Source: Balneicella halophila
GTDB lineage: Bacteria; Bacteroidota; Bacteroidia; Bacteroidales; Balneicellaceae
Assembly (NCBI RefSeq): GCF_003096835.1
Contig: NZ_QENZ01000003.1
Coordinates: 496,001-560,000, forward strand
Reading direction: 5' to 3'
DNA length: 64,000 nucleotides
Position 1 is the first letter of the stretch. Each line of letters starts with the position of its first letter. This document shows, one piece after another, positions 43,571-50,086 of this stretch. Made by a program: the position numbers and the translations under genes. The notes under the pieces were generated by a model that saw only the letters and a program-made list of their open reading frames with translations, made no database searches and was not told the DNA's origin.

Positions 43571-46500
43571 TCATTTCGTTGAGTTCTCAATAATTTCTAT
43601 TTCTTGGGGAGTTAAATCATAAAGCTCATACACCATTTGGTCTATTTCTTTGTCTGTTTTATCAATTTCTGCTTTTAATTTGGCTGCTTTTGTTTTTTCT
43701 GCAAGGAAATAATCTTCCCACTCAGTTTCTTCTGAAAGGCTTAGTTTTACTTTTTTCCTACTCAACTCTTTTGTGAATTCCTTGTAAGATAAAGAATGCC
43801 ACTCTTCTAACTTCTTGCTGAGTTTCTCTATTTCAAACTTCCTGTGAAGTGTACGTAGAAATTTATCAGTAATTTGTTGCAAGTATTTGTTCAACGATAA
43901 CATTTGGTTTACATTATCTATTATCGCATTAGGATTGTCAGGTATTTCAGGTAGAGGAAATGGTTTTAAATAATTGGTTTTGAATCTAAAATAACCACCT
44001 CTTAACTCTGTGCCTGTATTTTTTAAGAAAAACCACAGAACTTTAGAGTTCATAATACCTAAATAAAACTTTTCATCTACATCAAAGCTATCATTTTTTA
44101 CAAATGAATAAATTGTTGTAGGATGATAAAATTCTCCATTTTCATCATAAGTCATATTACAACCAGAGGATATTTCTTGTGTCATTATTTTAGGATGATG
44201 AAATTTATTTAAATTCTTGGGGTATATGTATAAATACCAGTCTTCCTCAATATCCATTTTCCCACGTTCCCTACCTCTAATTTCTGATTCGAAGTGTTTT
44301 AAATATTCATATGTCTTAGGAAGATTATTTAGAATATAATCCTCTTTCACTGAAATACCTTCTTCTGTATAAGGGAAAAAAACATAGTGAGTATTATTTA
44401 AATCTCGAAACTTTGAAATTTCATTGCCCTTTATAAAAGGCTTAACAATTTCCTTTTCAATTTCAAAATGATAATTATATTTACTGTTATATCCTTTAAT
44501 AATATTACCTTCTTCTACACCTTCAAATACATATATAGCATCCAAACTAGTTTGTAGTCCTACAAATATTTTATCAAATACTGTTTCTATTTTATATGGT
44601 TGTGTATTCAATTTTTCAATTAATTCAAAAACCTTTTGACTTTGTAAGTTCCAATTAGTTTCATCTAAATTTTCATATAATATATAATCCCATTTAAAAG
44701 GATTATTAATTTCCATAGGTTCTAGTTTTTTAAAAAGAAGCCTTTCCTTAGAATGCTTATTTAGGTTAATTATACATGTATAAGTTGAAGCATCTGCAAA
44801 AACCATATGAGAACCAAAATGGATAAGCTCACTTACTGCGTTACGTTCTTTAAAAAATGCTCTGATACCTTCTCCAAAATCAGCAACCAAGAACTTATGG
44901 GGCAAAATAAATGATACAATACCATGATTTTTAATCAATCCAAAACTTCTTTCCATAAATAAAGCATAGATATCATAATTACCAGTAGCGGATTGAAATC
45001 TATCCTCGTAGAAAATAGTTAATTCAGGATAATTTTCCATTAATCCTTGTTTTCGGATATAAGGCGGATTCCCTATCACCACATCAAAGCCCCCTTTGGC
45101 AAAAATATGGGGAAATTCCTCTTGCCAGTTGAAAGCTTTATCTCCGGCTACCTCTGGTTCATCTATTAACGAATTACCACATTTTATGTTATTGCTCAAT
45201 GTATTTAGCTTCCTGCCTTTTTGGGCAGTTTTCAACCAAAGGGAGAGTTTGGCAATCTCTACAGATTCCTCATTAAGGTCAACACCATAGATATTTTTCT
45301 CCAAAATGTCATTTGTAATATCAGCGAAAACCAAACCACCACCAAAGAGCTGTGCCCTAAGTTGATCTATTTTTTTATGCTCTTGTATCAAAAAGTCCAA
45401 AGCTTGGTTGAGAAAAGCTCCTGAGCCACAAGCAGGGTCAAGGATAGTAAGTGTAAGTAGCCAATCTCTATAATCTGTAAGCTTTTGGTCAAGCGTTTTT
45501 ATAGTATCTTTCTTTCTGTTTTTACGTCCTTTGCCATATTCTTCATCTACAATATCAAACTCTTTACGTTTTTCTTCACAGAGCTTGCCTACCGTATTTT
45601 CAACAATGTATTTAGTAATGTACTTTGGCGTATAGAAAATGCCATCTTTCTTACGCTTGGTCTTTTGAGTATCTACTTGCTCACCTTTTATCTCAGCCTG
45701 TACATTTTCAATCTCACCCAAAGAGTGTTCAAAGATATGTCCTAAGATATTTACATCTACATCTGTTTCAAAGTCATATTGGCTCAACTTTAAGGTATGG
45801 GTGTATAGTAATTCATCATCAATAGTAATAGCATCAAGCACCTCATCAGGTGCAAACAGTCCACCATTATAGGCATAAATGTCATAATTCTTACCTTTAT
45901 AGCCGGTATTCATATATCCAAAATATTTTTTGAACCTGTTATATAAAGGTACATAGGCATCTAATTCTTCTTTGAGAGTCTTCCACTTTTTAATAATATC
46001 TCCAATAGAATTTGGAGGAAGCAGGAGTCTGTCCTCAGCAAAAAATATAAAAAGAAAACGGTCTAATAATTTTTGTGTTTTCTTAAAAAGTAACAGTTTA
46101 TCAGTATTAGGATTATTCTTTACAAGGTTACTGTAAATCTCTGTACGGAACTTGGAATAATCAGCATAAAGTTCTTTAGTGATATTCTCTTCTTGTATTA
46201 ATGATGATTCCTTTATTTTTAAAGGAATATCCCTCAATAAATTTTCCTTTGCCAAGCACAACCAAAGGAGTGCAAATTGCTCTTTAGTTAAGTTAAAGAG
46301 GTCAAATTCCAAATATTCAATAGCATTGTGTATATAAAAGCGAAGCTTCTCAAAGTTAGAGGTAATAACATACACACATTTAGGATGATGATTTTTATAG
46401 CCAAATGCTTGAGCTTCTACCTTATCTAAGTCCGGTGTATTAGTTCCTTTTAGTTCAATGACAGCTACTGCATTATCATCTTTTATAATTGCACCATCAG

Positions 46501-46759
46501 CTTTCTTACTGTTGGCTATATTCTTGAGTTCTGTAGTAAGATTAAAATCAGGCTGAGGGTTAGGGGTGTATCCTAAAATATTCACAAACAACTCCCTTAA
46601 AAATCCTTCTTGAAATTGTTCCTCTTTGGCATTTCTGATGTTTTCCTGAATTTCAGGATTTCCAAAATACATTTGGAAGATGCTATATTTTTCTTGGACT
46701 AACTCAGCATCTAATTGACTTAGGTATTTTTTCTCTACTGACTTTTGAAATAAACTCAT
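43571..46759 (-). CDS. Type IIG (Eco57I-like) restriction-modification enzyme
   Basis: A 1062-residue fused nuclease-methyltransferase. The N-terminal PD-(D/E)xK nuclease core is Asp88 in KKADGAI and Glu102-Lys104 in AVIELKG. The adenine methyltransferase has SAM motif I DPACGSGAFL (441-450) and catalytic motif IV NPPY (564-567). The region from about 700 to 1000 fits a TaqI-like target-recognition domain (LRGGYFRFKTNYLKPFPLPEIP). All core motifs are present and the frame is intact, so it is probably active; the recognition sequence cannot be read. It is the only complete restriction gene in a decayed defence cluster. Confidence 0.92.
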   Translation of the reverse strand: MSLFQKSVEKKYLSQLDAELVQEKYSIFQMYFGNPEIQENIRNAKEEQFQEGFLRELFVNILGYTPNPQPDFNLTTELKNIANSKKADGAIIKDDNAVAVIELKGTNTPDLDKVEAQAFGYKNHHPKCVYVITSNFEKLRFYIHNAIEYLEFDLFNLTKEQFALLWLCLAKENLLRDIPLKIKESSLIQEENITKELYADYSKFRTEIYSNLVKNNPNTDKLLLFKKTQKLLDRFLFIFFAEDRLLLPPNSIGDIIKKWKTLKEELDAYVPLYNRFKKYFGYMNTGYKGKNYDIYAYNGGLFAPDEVLDAITIDDELLYTHTLKLSQYDFETDVDVNILGHIFEHSLGEIENVQAEIKGEQVDTQKTKRKKDGIFYTPKYITKYIVENTVGKLCEEKRKEFDIVDEEYGKGRKNRKKDTIKTLDQKLTDYRDWLLTLTILDPACGSGAFLNQALDFLIQEHKKIDQLRAQLFGGGLVFADITNDILEKNIYGVDLNEESVEIAKLSLWLKTAQKGRKLNTLSNNIKCGNSLIDEPEVAGDKAFNWQEEFPHIFAKGGFDVVIGNPPYIRKQGLMENYPELTIFYEDRFQSATGNYDIYALFMERSFGLIKNHGIVSFILPHKFLVADFGEGIRAFFKERNAVSELIHFGSHMVFADASTYTCIINLNKHSKERLLFKKLEPMEINNPFKWDYILYENLDETNWNLQSQKVFELIEKLNTQPYKIETVFDKIFVGLQTSLDAIYVFEGVEEGNIIKGYNSKYNYHFEIEKEIVKPFIKGNEISKFRDLNNTHYVFFPYTEEGISVKEDYILNNLPKTYEYLKHFESEIRGRERGKMDIEEDWYLYIYPKNLNKFHHPKIMTQEISSGCNMTYDENGEFYHPTTIYSFVKNDSFDVDEKFYLGIMNSKVLWFFLKNTGTELRGGYFRFKTNYLKPFPLPEIPDNPNAIIDNVNQMLSLNKYLQQITDKFLRTLHRKFEIEKLSKKLEEWHSLSYKEFTKELSRKKVKLSLSEETEWEDYFLAEKTKAAKLKAEIDKTDKEIDQMVYELYDLTPQEIEIIENSTK

Positions 46760-46824: not shown

Positions 46825-47359
46825 TTACTCTTCATGATAAAAAACTTGATTATCAACAATTCTCGCTGGGGAGGTGTAAGGATGTTCTTTTGGTTCGTTT
46901 TGATTGATAATATGTAAAACTTCCCAACCTCTGACTTTTAAGCTATCGGAAATCATTGAGCGATGGCATCGCCACCAGACGGCTTCCGCACACATTATTG
47001 TAGTTCTTTTTTTTTGAGGCAATTGACATTAATCTTTCTAAGACTTCTCGGTATTCTTCTGTGCCCATATAGTCAGCATAGCCCTGAAAAGATTTATTCC
47101 TCCAACTTGTATTTATCGAGTTCTTCAATACTTGTCGTCGACCTCCTAATTCTTTCATATATATGTACTCAATATCCTCATTCTTTAGCGTTTCTGAGAG
47201 TACCTCTTGGTTGTACTGAGGAAATTTATTAGAGCCGGGTAAACTTCTTACATCTACCAAAGTTTTCATCTTATTTGTATGCAACAAGTCTATGAATTCC
47301 TCAATGGGACGAGTGGAATGACCTATAGTATAAATCGTCTGCTTTTTTACATTCTTCAT
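46825..47359 (-). pseudogene. DUF488 family protein, frameshifted in a poly-A tract
   Basis: From ATG 47357-47359 the frame reads QTIYTIGHSTRPIEEFIDLL, with LVDVRSLPGSNKFPQYN and YMKELGGRR, all DUF488 motifs, then runs out of frame after RLMSIASKKK. The second frame picks up KKRTTIMCAEAVWWRCHRSM, then ISDSLKVRGWEVLHI, to 46825. The junction is an A9 run (47007-47015 as T on the plus strand); eight A's would restore one protein of about 178 residues. It could be a true mutation, a sequencing error or a phase-variable tract. DUF488 function is not established. Confidence 0.85.
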
Positions 47360-47371
47360 AAACTTGCCTTT

Positions 47372-48004
47372 TTAGATCTCACTTGTTAGAGCATTTACGT
47401 ATTTGTCAATATAAAGTTCTCGCTCTTTGTATTTATATTGTTGGATATAGCGAGGATGCTCTAAGACTACCATTTTGTTGAATAAATTGGCTTCATCATT
47501 TAGTTTTTGAATGAATTTCGCATTTTTCACTCCCAAGATATACACTTCAGAGGTGTACACTCCCATTTCAATATGTTTTCTCAAACTATCAATCATATAC
47601 TCTTTTGTAGAATCAAAGAGAGCTTTGCTATCATAGTAATTCGCGTTTAACCAATTACCACTTTTCGCTAACATTGTAATAGCAAGAGTGAATGGGGAGT
47701 TTACATAGAAGTCAGAATAAAAACGTTGCGGACCGCCATAGGCTTTTACCACATCATAAAAGAATACCGATGATACTTCATGGGTACGTATGCTTTTCAT
47801 CTTAATGCCACAAACGCTCTCTAAACGTTTCGTGTCCGTGAAAGGAATGCCTGTAACACCTGCACCATGACGACTCGGATTGATACCGATGATGAATTTT
47901 CTTTTTTTGGTGTCGTTGTAGTATTTAGTATAAAACCTATCCATGACTACTTGAGTTTCTGGAAGTTCCATAAACGGATTAATTACCTTAAAATTCTCAG
48001 GCAT
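47372..48004 (-). CDS. SMUG2-like uracil-DNA glycosylase family protein, 5' end lost
   Basis: A 210-residue protein of the SMUG2/DUF4918 uracil-DNA glycosylase superfamily. Motif 1 is [18 protein letters not shown], then [11 protein letters not shown], and motif 2 is [12 protein letters not shown]. Such enzymes excise damaged bases in repair. The frame stays open upstream of ATG 48002-48004 for 16 more codons ([16 protein letters not shown]), which look like the family's natural N-terminus, but no start codon lies there and a TAA blocks at 48053-48055. The original start therefore seems to have been deleted at the HsdR junction, leaving [11 protein letters not shown] as a substitute start. 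Activity is uncertain. Confidence 0.82.
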
Positions 48005-48045
48005 AGCACCGTTGTATTCAAGGTTTTTATTGAATTCAAAGAAAC

Positions 48046-48700
48046 CTACTTTTTATCAGATGATGATATAGGTAAGATGAAAGCCATTGATGTGCCAGCA
48101 GAGAGAACAATTCAAGATTATCGTTCTACCTATAATGACATACGCGATTGGTTGCGAAGACAAAAAGAAGGTAACCAGCCAGAGGAATCCAATATTGATT
48201 GGGATGATGTGGTTTTTGAAATCGATTTATTAAAATCTCAGGAGATTAATTTAGATTATATTCTCGAATTGCTTTTTGAACACAATAAAAAGACACGCAA
48301 TAAATCGGATTTGGTAGAAGAAATTCGCCGTGTAATACGTTCCAGCGTTGGCAATAGAGCCAAAGAAAGTTTGGTGGTAGATTTTATTAACGAAACAGAT
48401 TTAGACAAGATTAAAGATAAAACCAGCATTATAGAATCTTTCTTTTCATTTGCGCAAGAAAAACTAAAAGAAGAAGCGACTGAACTTATTGAGGAAGAAG
48501 AATTAAACGAAGAAGCCGCCAAGAGATATATTTTATCCTCCTTAAAGCGAGAATATGCCAGTGAAAACGGCACAGAACTTAATGCTGTATTACCTAAAAT
48601 GAGCCCACTCAACCCAAAATATCTAACTTTAAAACAACAGGTTTTTGAAAGGATATCTTCTTTTGTAGAGAAATTTAAAGGTGTTGGTGGTAATGTATAG
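48046..48700 (+). pseudogene. C-terminal remnant of type I restriction enzyme subunit HsdR
   Basis: In frame with the stop at 48698-48700 the sequence reads [77 protein letters not shown] and [18 protein letters not shown], ending KGVGGNV. This is the C-terminal helical domain of HsdR, which docks on the HsdM/HsdS methylase. About 215 of roughly 1000 residues remain; the nuclease and helicase parts are gone. ATG 48077 could start a 207-residue product. The longer open frame back to 47867 is only the antisense shadow of the SMUG2 gene. No hsdM or hsdS is nearby. Confidence 0.87.
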
Positions 48701-48833
48701 TATATTGACTATATTTATGCTATTAATTACATCATTTTGGAAAGATTATTGTGGCTTTTGGGAATGATTTTATTCTGATTTAAAGGATTTAATATTCATC
48801 TAAAAAAGAATAATCTCTTGGGGCTTTTGGCAA

Positions 48834-48986
48834 GTGCTTGTGGTTAATATATTTTTTGCTCTTTGTTTTTACTTTGTTGTTAAGCGTAAAACTACGGCAA
48901 AAGCAAAAATAGCAGAAACAGTATGGATAGTTTTAACAGGAATATTTGGACCTATAGCTGTTCTTGCTTTGGAGAAGAGAAAATAG
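48834..48986 (+). CDS. Possible small two-helix membrane protein
   Basis: From GTG 48834 a 50-residue frame reads VLVVNIFFALCFYFVVKRK, then AETVWIVLTGIFGPIAVL, with a basic end EKRK. Two hydrophobic helices are plain. The frame extends a few codons upstream without an ATG, so it may be a real gene with a GTG start or the tail of a deleted one. It lies 19 bp before a lipoprotein gene. Confidence 0.35.
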   Translation: MLVVNIFFALCFYFVVKRKTTAKAKIAETVWIVLTGIFGPIAVLALEKRK

Positions 48987-49005
48987 ATGTTTAATAGTAT
49001 AAAAA

Positions 49006-49548
49006 ATGAATAAAATGAAAAAAACAGTATTCTTATTAGGATTGGTGATGGTATTTTTTGCTTGCAATAGTAAGACAGATTCATCTAAAGAAAACGAGAA
49101 TGTAAATGAAGAATTGAAAGTTCAGACAATTGATGAAGTCGTTGCAAATACAGAACGAAATGTTGGTAATACCATATTCGTGAAAGGCTTAGTAACCCAT
49201 ACATGTGAGCATTCTGGGCGACGTTGCTTTATTGAAAATGACGATGAATCGTTATCACTACGAATCGATGCGGGGGGTGACATAAAAAGTTTTAGCAAGG
49301 AATTAGCAGGTTCAATCATAGCGGTTAAGGGTACATTGGAAGAGAATAGGTTAACTAATGAGTATATTGATGAATATGAGGCAAAAGTAAAAGCTAAAGA
49401 AAAGGAGGAAGATATCGAAGAAGGAGGAGAACACTGTAGTGCTGAAATAAGCAATATTATAAAGATGCGTAAGTGGATGAAGGACAATAATAAAGATTAT
49501 TATCCCGTTTATTATATAACTGGAGAATCATATGAAGTGGTGGAGTAA
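49006..49548 (+). CDS. Lipoprotein with OB-like domain and CxHxGxxC motif
   Basis: A 180-residue exported lipoprotein (signal LLGLVMVFFAC|NSKTD). The middle (about 38-115) looks like a small OB-fold: VGNTIFVKGLVTHTCEHSG, then RRCFIENDDESLSLRID and LAGSIIAVKGTLEE. The two cysteines in HTCEHSGRRC could bind a metal or form a disulfide. A charged linker (EKEEDIEEGGEHC) and a short helical end follow. I recall similar lipoproteins near PepSY and TonB-receptor genes in Bacteroidota, but function is unknown. It overlaps the PepSY gene downstream by 17 bp. Confidence 0.7.
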   Translation: MNKMKKTVFLLGLVMVFFACNSKTDSSKENENVNEELKVQTIDEVVANTERNVGNTIFVKGLVTHTCEHSGRRCFIENDDESLSLRIDAGGDIKSFSKELAGSIIAVKGTLEENRLTNEYIDEYEAKVKAKEKEEDIEEGGEHCSAEISNIIKMRKWMKDNNKDYYPVYYITGESYEVVE

Positions 49549-50086
49549 AAAAAGTCTGAATAAGCTAAATAGAACATTACATCGTGACTTGGGCTATTTG
49601 TTTATTGGATTGACTGTTATTTATGCTTTTTCTGGAATTGCGTTAGTATTAAAGCAATATAATATTGATATAGAATATAGCGAAGAAACAATAAAGAATG
49701 AGTTTTCGCCAAATCTATCTAAGGATGAGTTTAAACTTGACTGGAGTAAGCAGGATGAACTTCCTAGACTTACTCGAGTCAAAATAGATAATCATTCAAA
49801 TTATAGACTACTTGTAAAGGGCGGTGAGGGTGTTTATAATATAACTACAGGGGAAGTTAAACTCTCAATTTTTAAGACGAATAAGTTGATCAAATTTGCC
49901 AATGATATTCATTATAATATTGGTAAACGGTTTACTTGGCTAGCCATTTTATACTGCTGTATGTTGATTTTCTTTGCTATATCCGGAGCTATTATAGTAA
50001 AAGGTAAAAAAGGATTTAAAAGACGTGGAGTTTGGTTTGCCCTTATCGGAATTGGAATTCCAGTTATTTACTATTTTATAGTGTAA
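49532..50086 (+). CDS. PepSY domain membrane protein (short form)
   Basis: A 184-residue protein with N-terminal helix LHRDLGYLFIGLTVIYAFSG, a PepSY-like soluble segment (about 45-125, including YRLLVKGGEGVYNITTGEV) and two C-terminal helices (TWLAILYCCMLIFFAISGAI and WFALIGIGIPVIYYFIV). Membrane histidines HRD and HYN may hold haem. Its start overlaps the OB-like lipoprotein gene by 17 bp, so the two are translationally coupled and probably work together at the membrane. Confidence 0.78.
   Translation: MKWWSKKSLNKLNRTLHRDLGYLFIGLTVIYAFSGIALVLKQYNIDIEYSEETIKNEFSPNLSKDEFKLDWSKQDELPRLTRVKIDNHSNYRLLVKGGEGVYNITTGEVKLSIFKTNKLIKFANDIHYNIGKRFTWLAILYCCMLIFFAISGAIIVKGKKGFKRRGVWFALIGIGIPVIYYFIV

Follow-up and report, generated by a model that had tools for sequence, protein, structure and literature searches.

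A probable deletion scar joining a SMUG2-like glycosylase gene to the 3' end of a type IC hsdR gene in Balneicella halophila

Illegitimate recombination leaves deletion scars in bacterial genomes. At one locus of Balneicella halophila, as at such scars, two unrelated truncated genes abut with little or no common sequence, and the genes expected between them are absent; unlike at described scars, the ancestral state and any microhomology are here judged without an intact relative. The two genes encode a SMUG2-like uracil-DNA glycosylase, on the minus strand, and the C-terminal part of the restriction subunit HsdR, on the plus strand. The solved structures closest to the former, 5h0j and 5h0k, which are labelled 'Uncharacterized protein' in the structure table, are presumably those of SMUG2 of Pedobacter heparinus. 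The SMUG2 paper is Pang et al. 2017, as given in a reference entry of PMC10776899, and EcoR124I, the reference for the latter gene, is assigned to type IC in an excerpt of PMC3874165. A literature search found no description of this SMUG2/hsdR junction. The window, that is, the whole stretch of 64,000 nucleotides that was analysed, covers positions 496001-560000 of contig C3 in an assembly of 2,089,523 bases (11 contigs, 98.2% complete), and coordinates are those of the window unless a contig is named.

The right-hand gene is what remains of the 3' end of an hsdR of the EcoR124 type (type IC), at 48035-48700 on the plus strand, stop codon included. Specifically, the plus-strand open reading frame scores 183 bits with the EcoR124_C family (PF12008), whose cut-off is 23.1. 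The 221 residues encoded by 48035-48697, which run from Phe 48035 up to the stop codon, show an ungapped match to residues 818-1038 of EcoR124I HsdR (2w00, 1038 residues; E value 1.7e-90). Unlike EcoR124I HsdR, the remnant is missing residues 1-817; the nuclease (HSDR_N) and motor domains, which are present in a relative from Marinilabilia (L042), are absent from the locus, and neither hsdM nor hsdS lies beside it. An HsdR C-terminus with no HsdR upstream had been described in the earlier note, and this description stands, but its start is at 48032-48035 rather than at about 48046. The HsdR-type match holds from Phe 48035 and Lys 48038, each shared by 76 of 77 homologues. Left of 48032, no HsdR homology is found, the residues there break positions that are kept in all 77 homologues, and the DNA is SMUG2 sequence on the opposite strand.

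A scan of genome contigs yielded 80 HsdR-homologous loci with 71-79% identity, of which 77 entered the alignment, three frames of at most 300 aa (274, 293 and 293 aa) being left out. In 70 of the 80 loci, the open frame has a length of 1000 aa or more. Among the ten shorter ones, four (L079, L093, L096 and L106) start where the locus itself starts and are HsdR-like from residue 1; in two (L064 and L080), the remainder of HsdR lies in a different frame or farther upstream; and two (L069 and L110) begin partway. The remaining two, from Psychrobacter (L107 and L108), are 293-aa frames that start at 1000 and 970 and cover HsdR 781-1038 only, preceded by 35 unrelated residues; these are possibly another HsdR C-terminal remnant. 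Additionally, in the survey of the order described below, matches with 56-77% identity come from 11 other genomes, ten of which have HsdR frames of 1038-1085 aa and one a frame of 478 aa. Because of these lengths, an HsdR of 221 residues departs from the usual form of the protein, and HsdR is not naturally short. Near the junction, ATG starts for the remnant are found only at 47867, inside antisense SMUG2, and at 48077. From the former, the list of open reading frames gives a mechanical chimaeric ORF of 277 aa (47867-48700, plus strand), in which 56 antisense-SMUG2 codons precede the HsdR C-terminal domain; we found no evidence that this 277-aa ORF is a real gene.

The left-hand gene, at 47372-48034 on the minus strand, encodes a 5'-truncated SMUG2-like uracil-DNA glycosylase. 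Its open frame (47372-48052) matches PF03167 with 48.8 bits and the two SMUG2 structures with E values of 2.4e-65 (5h0j) and 7.6e-65 (5h0k), and residues 5-222 of the frame align with residues 9-228 of the 5h0j chain. The remnant contains the stretch GINPxRxGAG, which we take to be catalytic motif 1 of SMUG2, and it keeps 31 of the 32 columns that are conserved at 97% or more. Leaving aside the window's own locus, 56 genomes of the order have a match, and the remnant was aligned with the best 29 of them. In contrast to the P. heparinus protein, the window gene has neither the N-terminus nor a start codon. Two stop codons lie directly upstream of the frame, and no start of translation table 11 (ATG, GTG, TTG or other) occurs before ATG 48004. 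The earlier note was thus right about a SMUG2 frame that reaches 48052 and meets a stop with no start, but only partly right in reading its first 16 codons as family-like: residues 4-5 are Phe-Phe, where the family has I/V in 29 of 29 homologues and I/L/V in 28 of 29. The homology reaches as far as Phe 7 (48032-48034), which is Phe in 27 of the 29 homologues, and begins at that residue or at the adjoining E, whereas the first residues of the frame, KVGFF, are antisense HsdR.

ATG 48004, which encodes Met 17 of the frame, aligns with Leu in 28 of the 29 homologues and with Val in the other, and is therefore an internal codon rather than a natural start at MPENF. Translation from it would yield a protein about 20 residues shorter than 5h0j, and all 29 homologues extend upstream with an N-terminus (e.g., ...TFADKVIEFN) that is absent from the remnant. 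These alignments bear on the reading in which both short genes are natural and functional, with SMUG2 starting at ATG 48004 and HsdR being a stand-alone C-terminal domain protein. Although both frames are open, conserved columns are retained and the Psychrobacter frames offer a parallel, this reading is highly improbable, given the Leu at the position of ATG 48004, the mostly full-length HsdR homologues and the lack of any ATG near the junction for HsdR other than those at 47867 and 48077.

Both homologies are far above chance, and they abut or overlap in GAATTC at 48032-48037. The break point was modelled with nucleotide profiles of the 29 SMUG2 and 77 HsdR homologues; positions were treated as independent, rows were given no weights, and the prior was flat over 48014-48064. 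In this simple profile model, about 99% of the posterior weight lies between 48031/48032 and 48039/48040, and the best break point is 48034/48035 with all rows and 48031/48032 with the closest rows. Profile and codon alignments together place the junction between SMUG2 (left, minus sense) and hsdR (right, plus sense) at 48031-48040. The homology limits given earlier, 48046 for HsdR and 48052 for SMUG2, were about 10-20 bp too far to the right, and the claim that the two homologies end within about ten bases of each other is borne out even more closely than it was put. There is good support for a single breakpoint behind both truncations.

With up to three mismatches allowed, the 28-mer spanning the junction occurs only once in the genome, so that no repeat is present there; nothing beyond the small palindrome was seen at the junction, and no strong repeat pairs were seen in 47300-49600. 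The GC content is similar in the flanks, at 0.344 for the 10 kb to the left and 0.350 for the 10 kb to the right. A junction that falls on GAATTC, in an 11-contig assembly judged without reads, might suggest an assembly or library chimaera of two distant genome parts. However, the two parents have at most about 8 bp in common at the junction, which is too short for an ordinary k-mer misjoin, the 28-mer has no second copy, and the rest of HsdR and HsdM were not found elsewhere in the assembly, all of which leaves a chimaera with very little credence.

The absence of the missing parts was seen in searches of the whole genome. The full HsdR of a Sunxiuqinia relative (L046) matched the genome at two places only, namely the C-terminus at the junction and, with 32% identity in a motor region, contig C4; the type IC HsdM of the Marinilabilia relative (L042) found only a 29% match on C4, and HsdS matches occur only on C4, beside the HsdM relative. 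Because a close copy of the missing part of HsdR and of HsdM is absent elsewhere in the assembly, a deletion fits better than an inversion or a translocation. Against a deletion, the missing part could in principle sit in a gap of an assembly that has 11 contigs and is 98.2% complete. The matches on C4 belong to a separate, distant type I system at about C4:366952-372038, with an HsdM, two HsdS matches, one of which contains a TAA stop, and a 942-aa HsdR frame (L120, L122-L124, L126 and L127). A further HSDR_N match in the genome lies in a 153-aa frame at C4:106332.

The order was surveyed in 393 genomes, in which the genus and the family are represented by the window's genome alone, with cut-offs of E ≤0.001 for SMUG2 and E ≤1e-20 for the HsdR C-terminus. 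SMUG2 was found in 57 of the 393 genomes and the HsdR C-terminus in 22, and the window's own genome is the only one of them with both. By chance, about three other genomes with both would be expected among the 393, which makes their absence a weak signal. The sequence flanking the 80 HsdR loci contained no SMUG2, and that flanking the 29 SMUG2 loci, about 1.5 kb or less, contained no HsdR. The lack of the intact arrangement in any relative surveyed counts against a deletion, but in itself it neither proves one nor rules one out. The earlier note had proposed that one breakpoint removed most of a type I system and the glycosylase start together; the breakpoint that truncates both genes is upheld, whereas removal in one step, like the former adjacency of the genes and the mechanism of joining, is something that we infer, because no second genome among the 393 carries both genes.

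The same survey bears on an insertion, in which a horizontally acquired piece already starting inside hsdR would have been joined into the 5' end of SMUG2, and complete hsdRMS would never have been present here. Such an event would agree with the patchy distribution of this HsdR type in the order (22 of 393 genomes) and with SMUG2 and type IC hsdR being neighbours in no other locus examined. Yet the SMUG2 start is missing as well and is not seen nearby, 47300-49600 contains no repeat pair of an element boundary, and GC is alike on both sides; we regard an insertion as unlikely. A scar of illegitimate deletion, with no visible repeat or mobile element as its driver, is in our judgement the probable explanation, held with good confidence. 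In the ancestral state, the SMUG2-like gene would have had on its right a set of hsdMSR genes of the EcoR124 family, or hsdR at the least. The deletion would have taken out the stretch from about the tenth SMUG2 codon through hsdR codon 817, and the ends would have been joined close to two Phe codons, one on each strand, perhaps via a microhomology of 6-8 bp, GAATTC(AA).

Relatives carry GAATTC in the same register in 3 of 29 SMUG2 genes (L011, L026 and L028) and in 3 of 77 HsdR genes (L045, L046 and L091). In particular, L011 (SMUG2) and L045 (HsdR) have GAATTCAA in common at the junction register, and 6-8 bp are common across this register in 18 of the 2233 pairs of SMUG2 and HsdR homologues. 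The Phe codon TTC on one strand is the Glu codon GAA on the other, and the match at GAATTC is thus partly automatic. A GAATTC(AA) microhomology at 48032-48039 is a plausible candidate rather than a firm one, because a blunt join of two Phe codons would look identical. The interval 48044-48056, in which microhomology had been sought by the earlier note, lies outside the junction. EcoRI-like cutting and joining at GAATTC was considered as well and is unneeded, since the palindrome follows from the Phe codons on the two strands.

Highly conserved columns are broken at 2 of 97 positions in the HsdR remnant (0-7 in homologues) and at 1 of 32 in the SMUG2 remnant (0-8 in homologues). The remnants thus show no more decay than expected, which would fit a recent event or the retention of some product. 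Recent loss is the simplest reading, and the deletion is probably recent. The open frames and conserved residues of the remnants would equally suit a retained function, which counts against a deletion. Judged from their predicted products, both remnants are probably non-functional, the HsdR remnant because it is without nuclease and motor, in which state HsdR cannot restrict, and the SMUG2 remnant because it is without its native start. That the isolated C-terminal domain of HsdR (about 207-277 aa, depending on the start) has been retained as a small protein, which for example would bind methylase/restriction complexes and damp restriction, is a reading to which we give next to no weight; the stand-alone Psychrobacter fragments might be of this same kind.

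In line with a deletion, the neighbouring gene is broken too. Directly downstream of SMUG2, at 46825-47359 on the minus strand, lies a DUF488 gene (PF04343, 75.1 bits) that a frameshift within nine consecutive T (47007-47015) divides in two. In a tblastn search, two frames at this locus were matched by DUF488 from L015, where the SMUG2-DUF488 pair is intact in the same order and on the same strand. The frameshift could reflect decay, phase variation or a sequencing (indel) error in the T run. Adjoining the broken genes, 43571-46759 on the minus strand encodes a type IIG-like protein of 1062 aa, which resembles Eco57I/MmeI and has a methylase and a TaqI-like specificity domain.

Taken together, the event is ordinary genome decay of an already-known kind and does not represent a new system. 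It illustrates that a single break point can cost a genome both a defence gene and a repair gene, and that homologues alone can place such a break point within about 10 bp. For annotation, the locus carries a warning: the 210-aa glycosylase ORF that starts at ATG 48004 and the 277-aa HsdR ORF that starts at ATG 47867 are truncated or chimaeric rather than natural genes.
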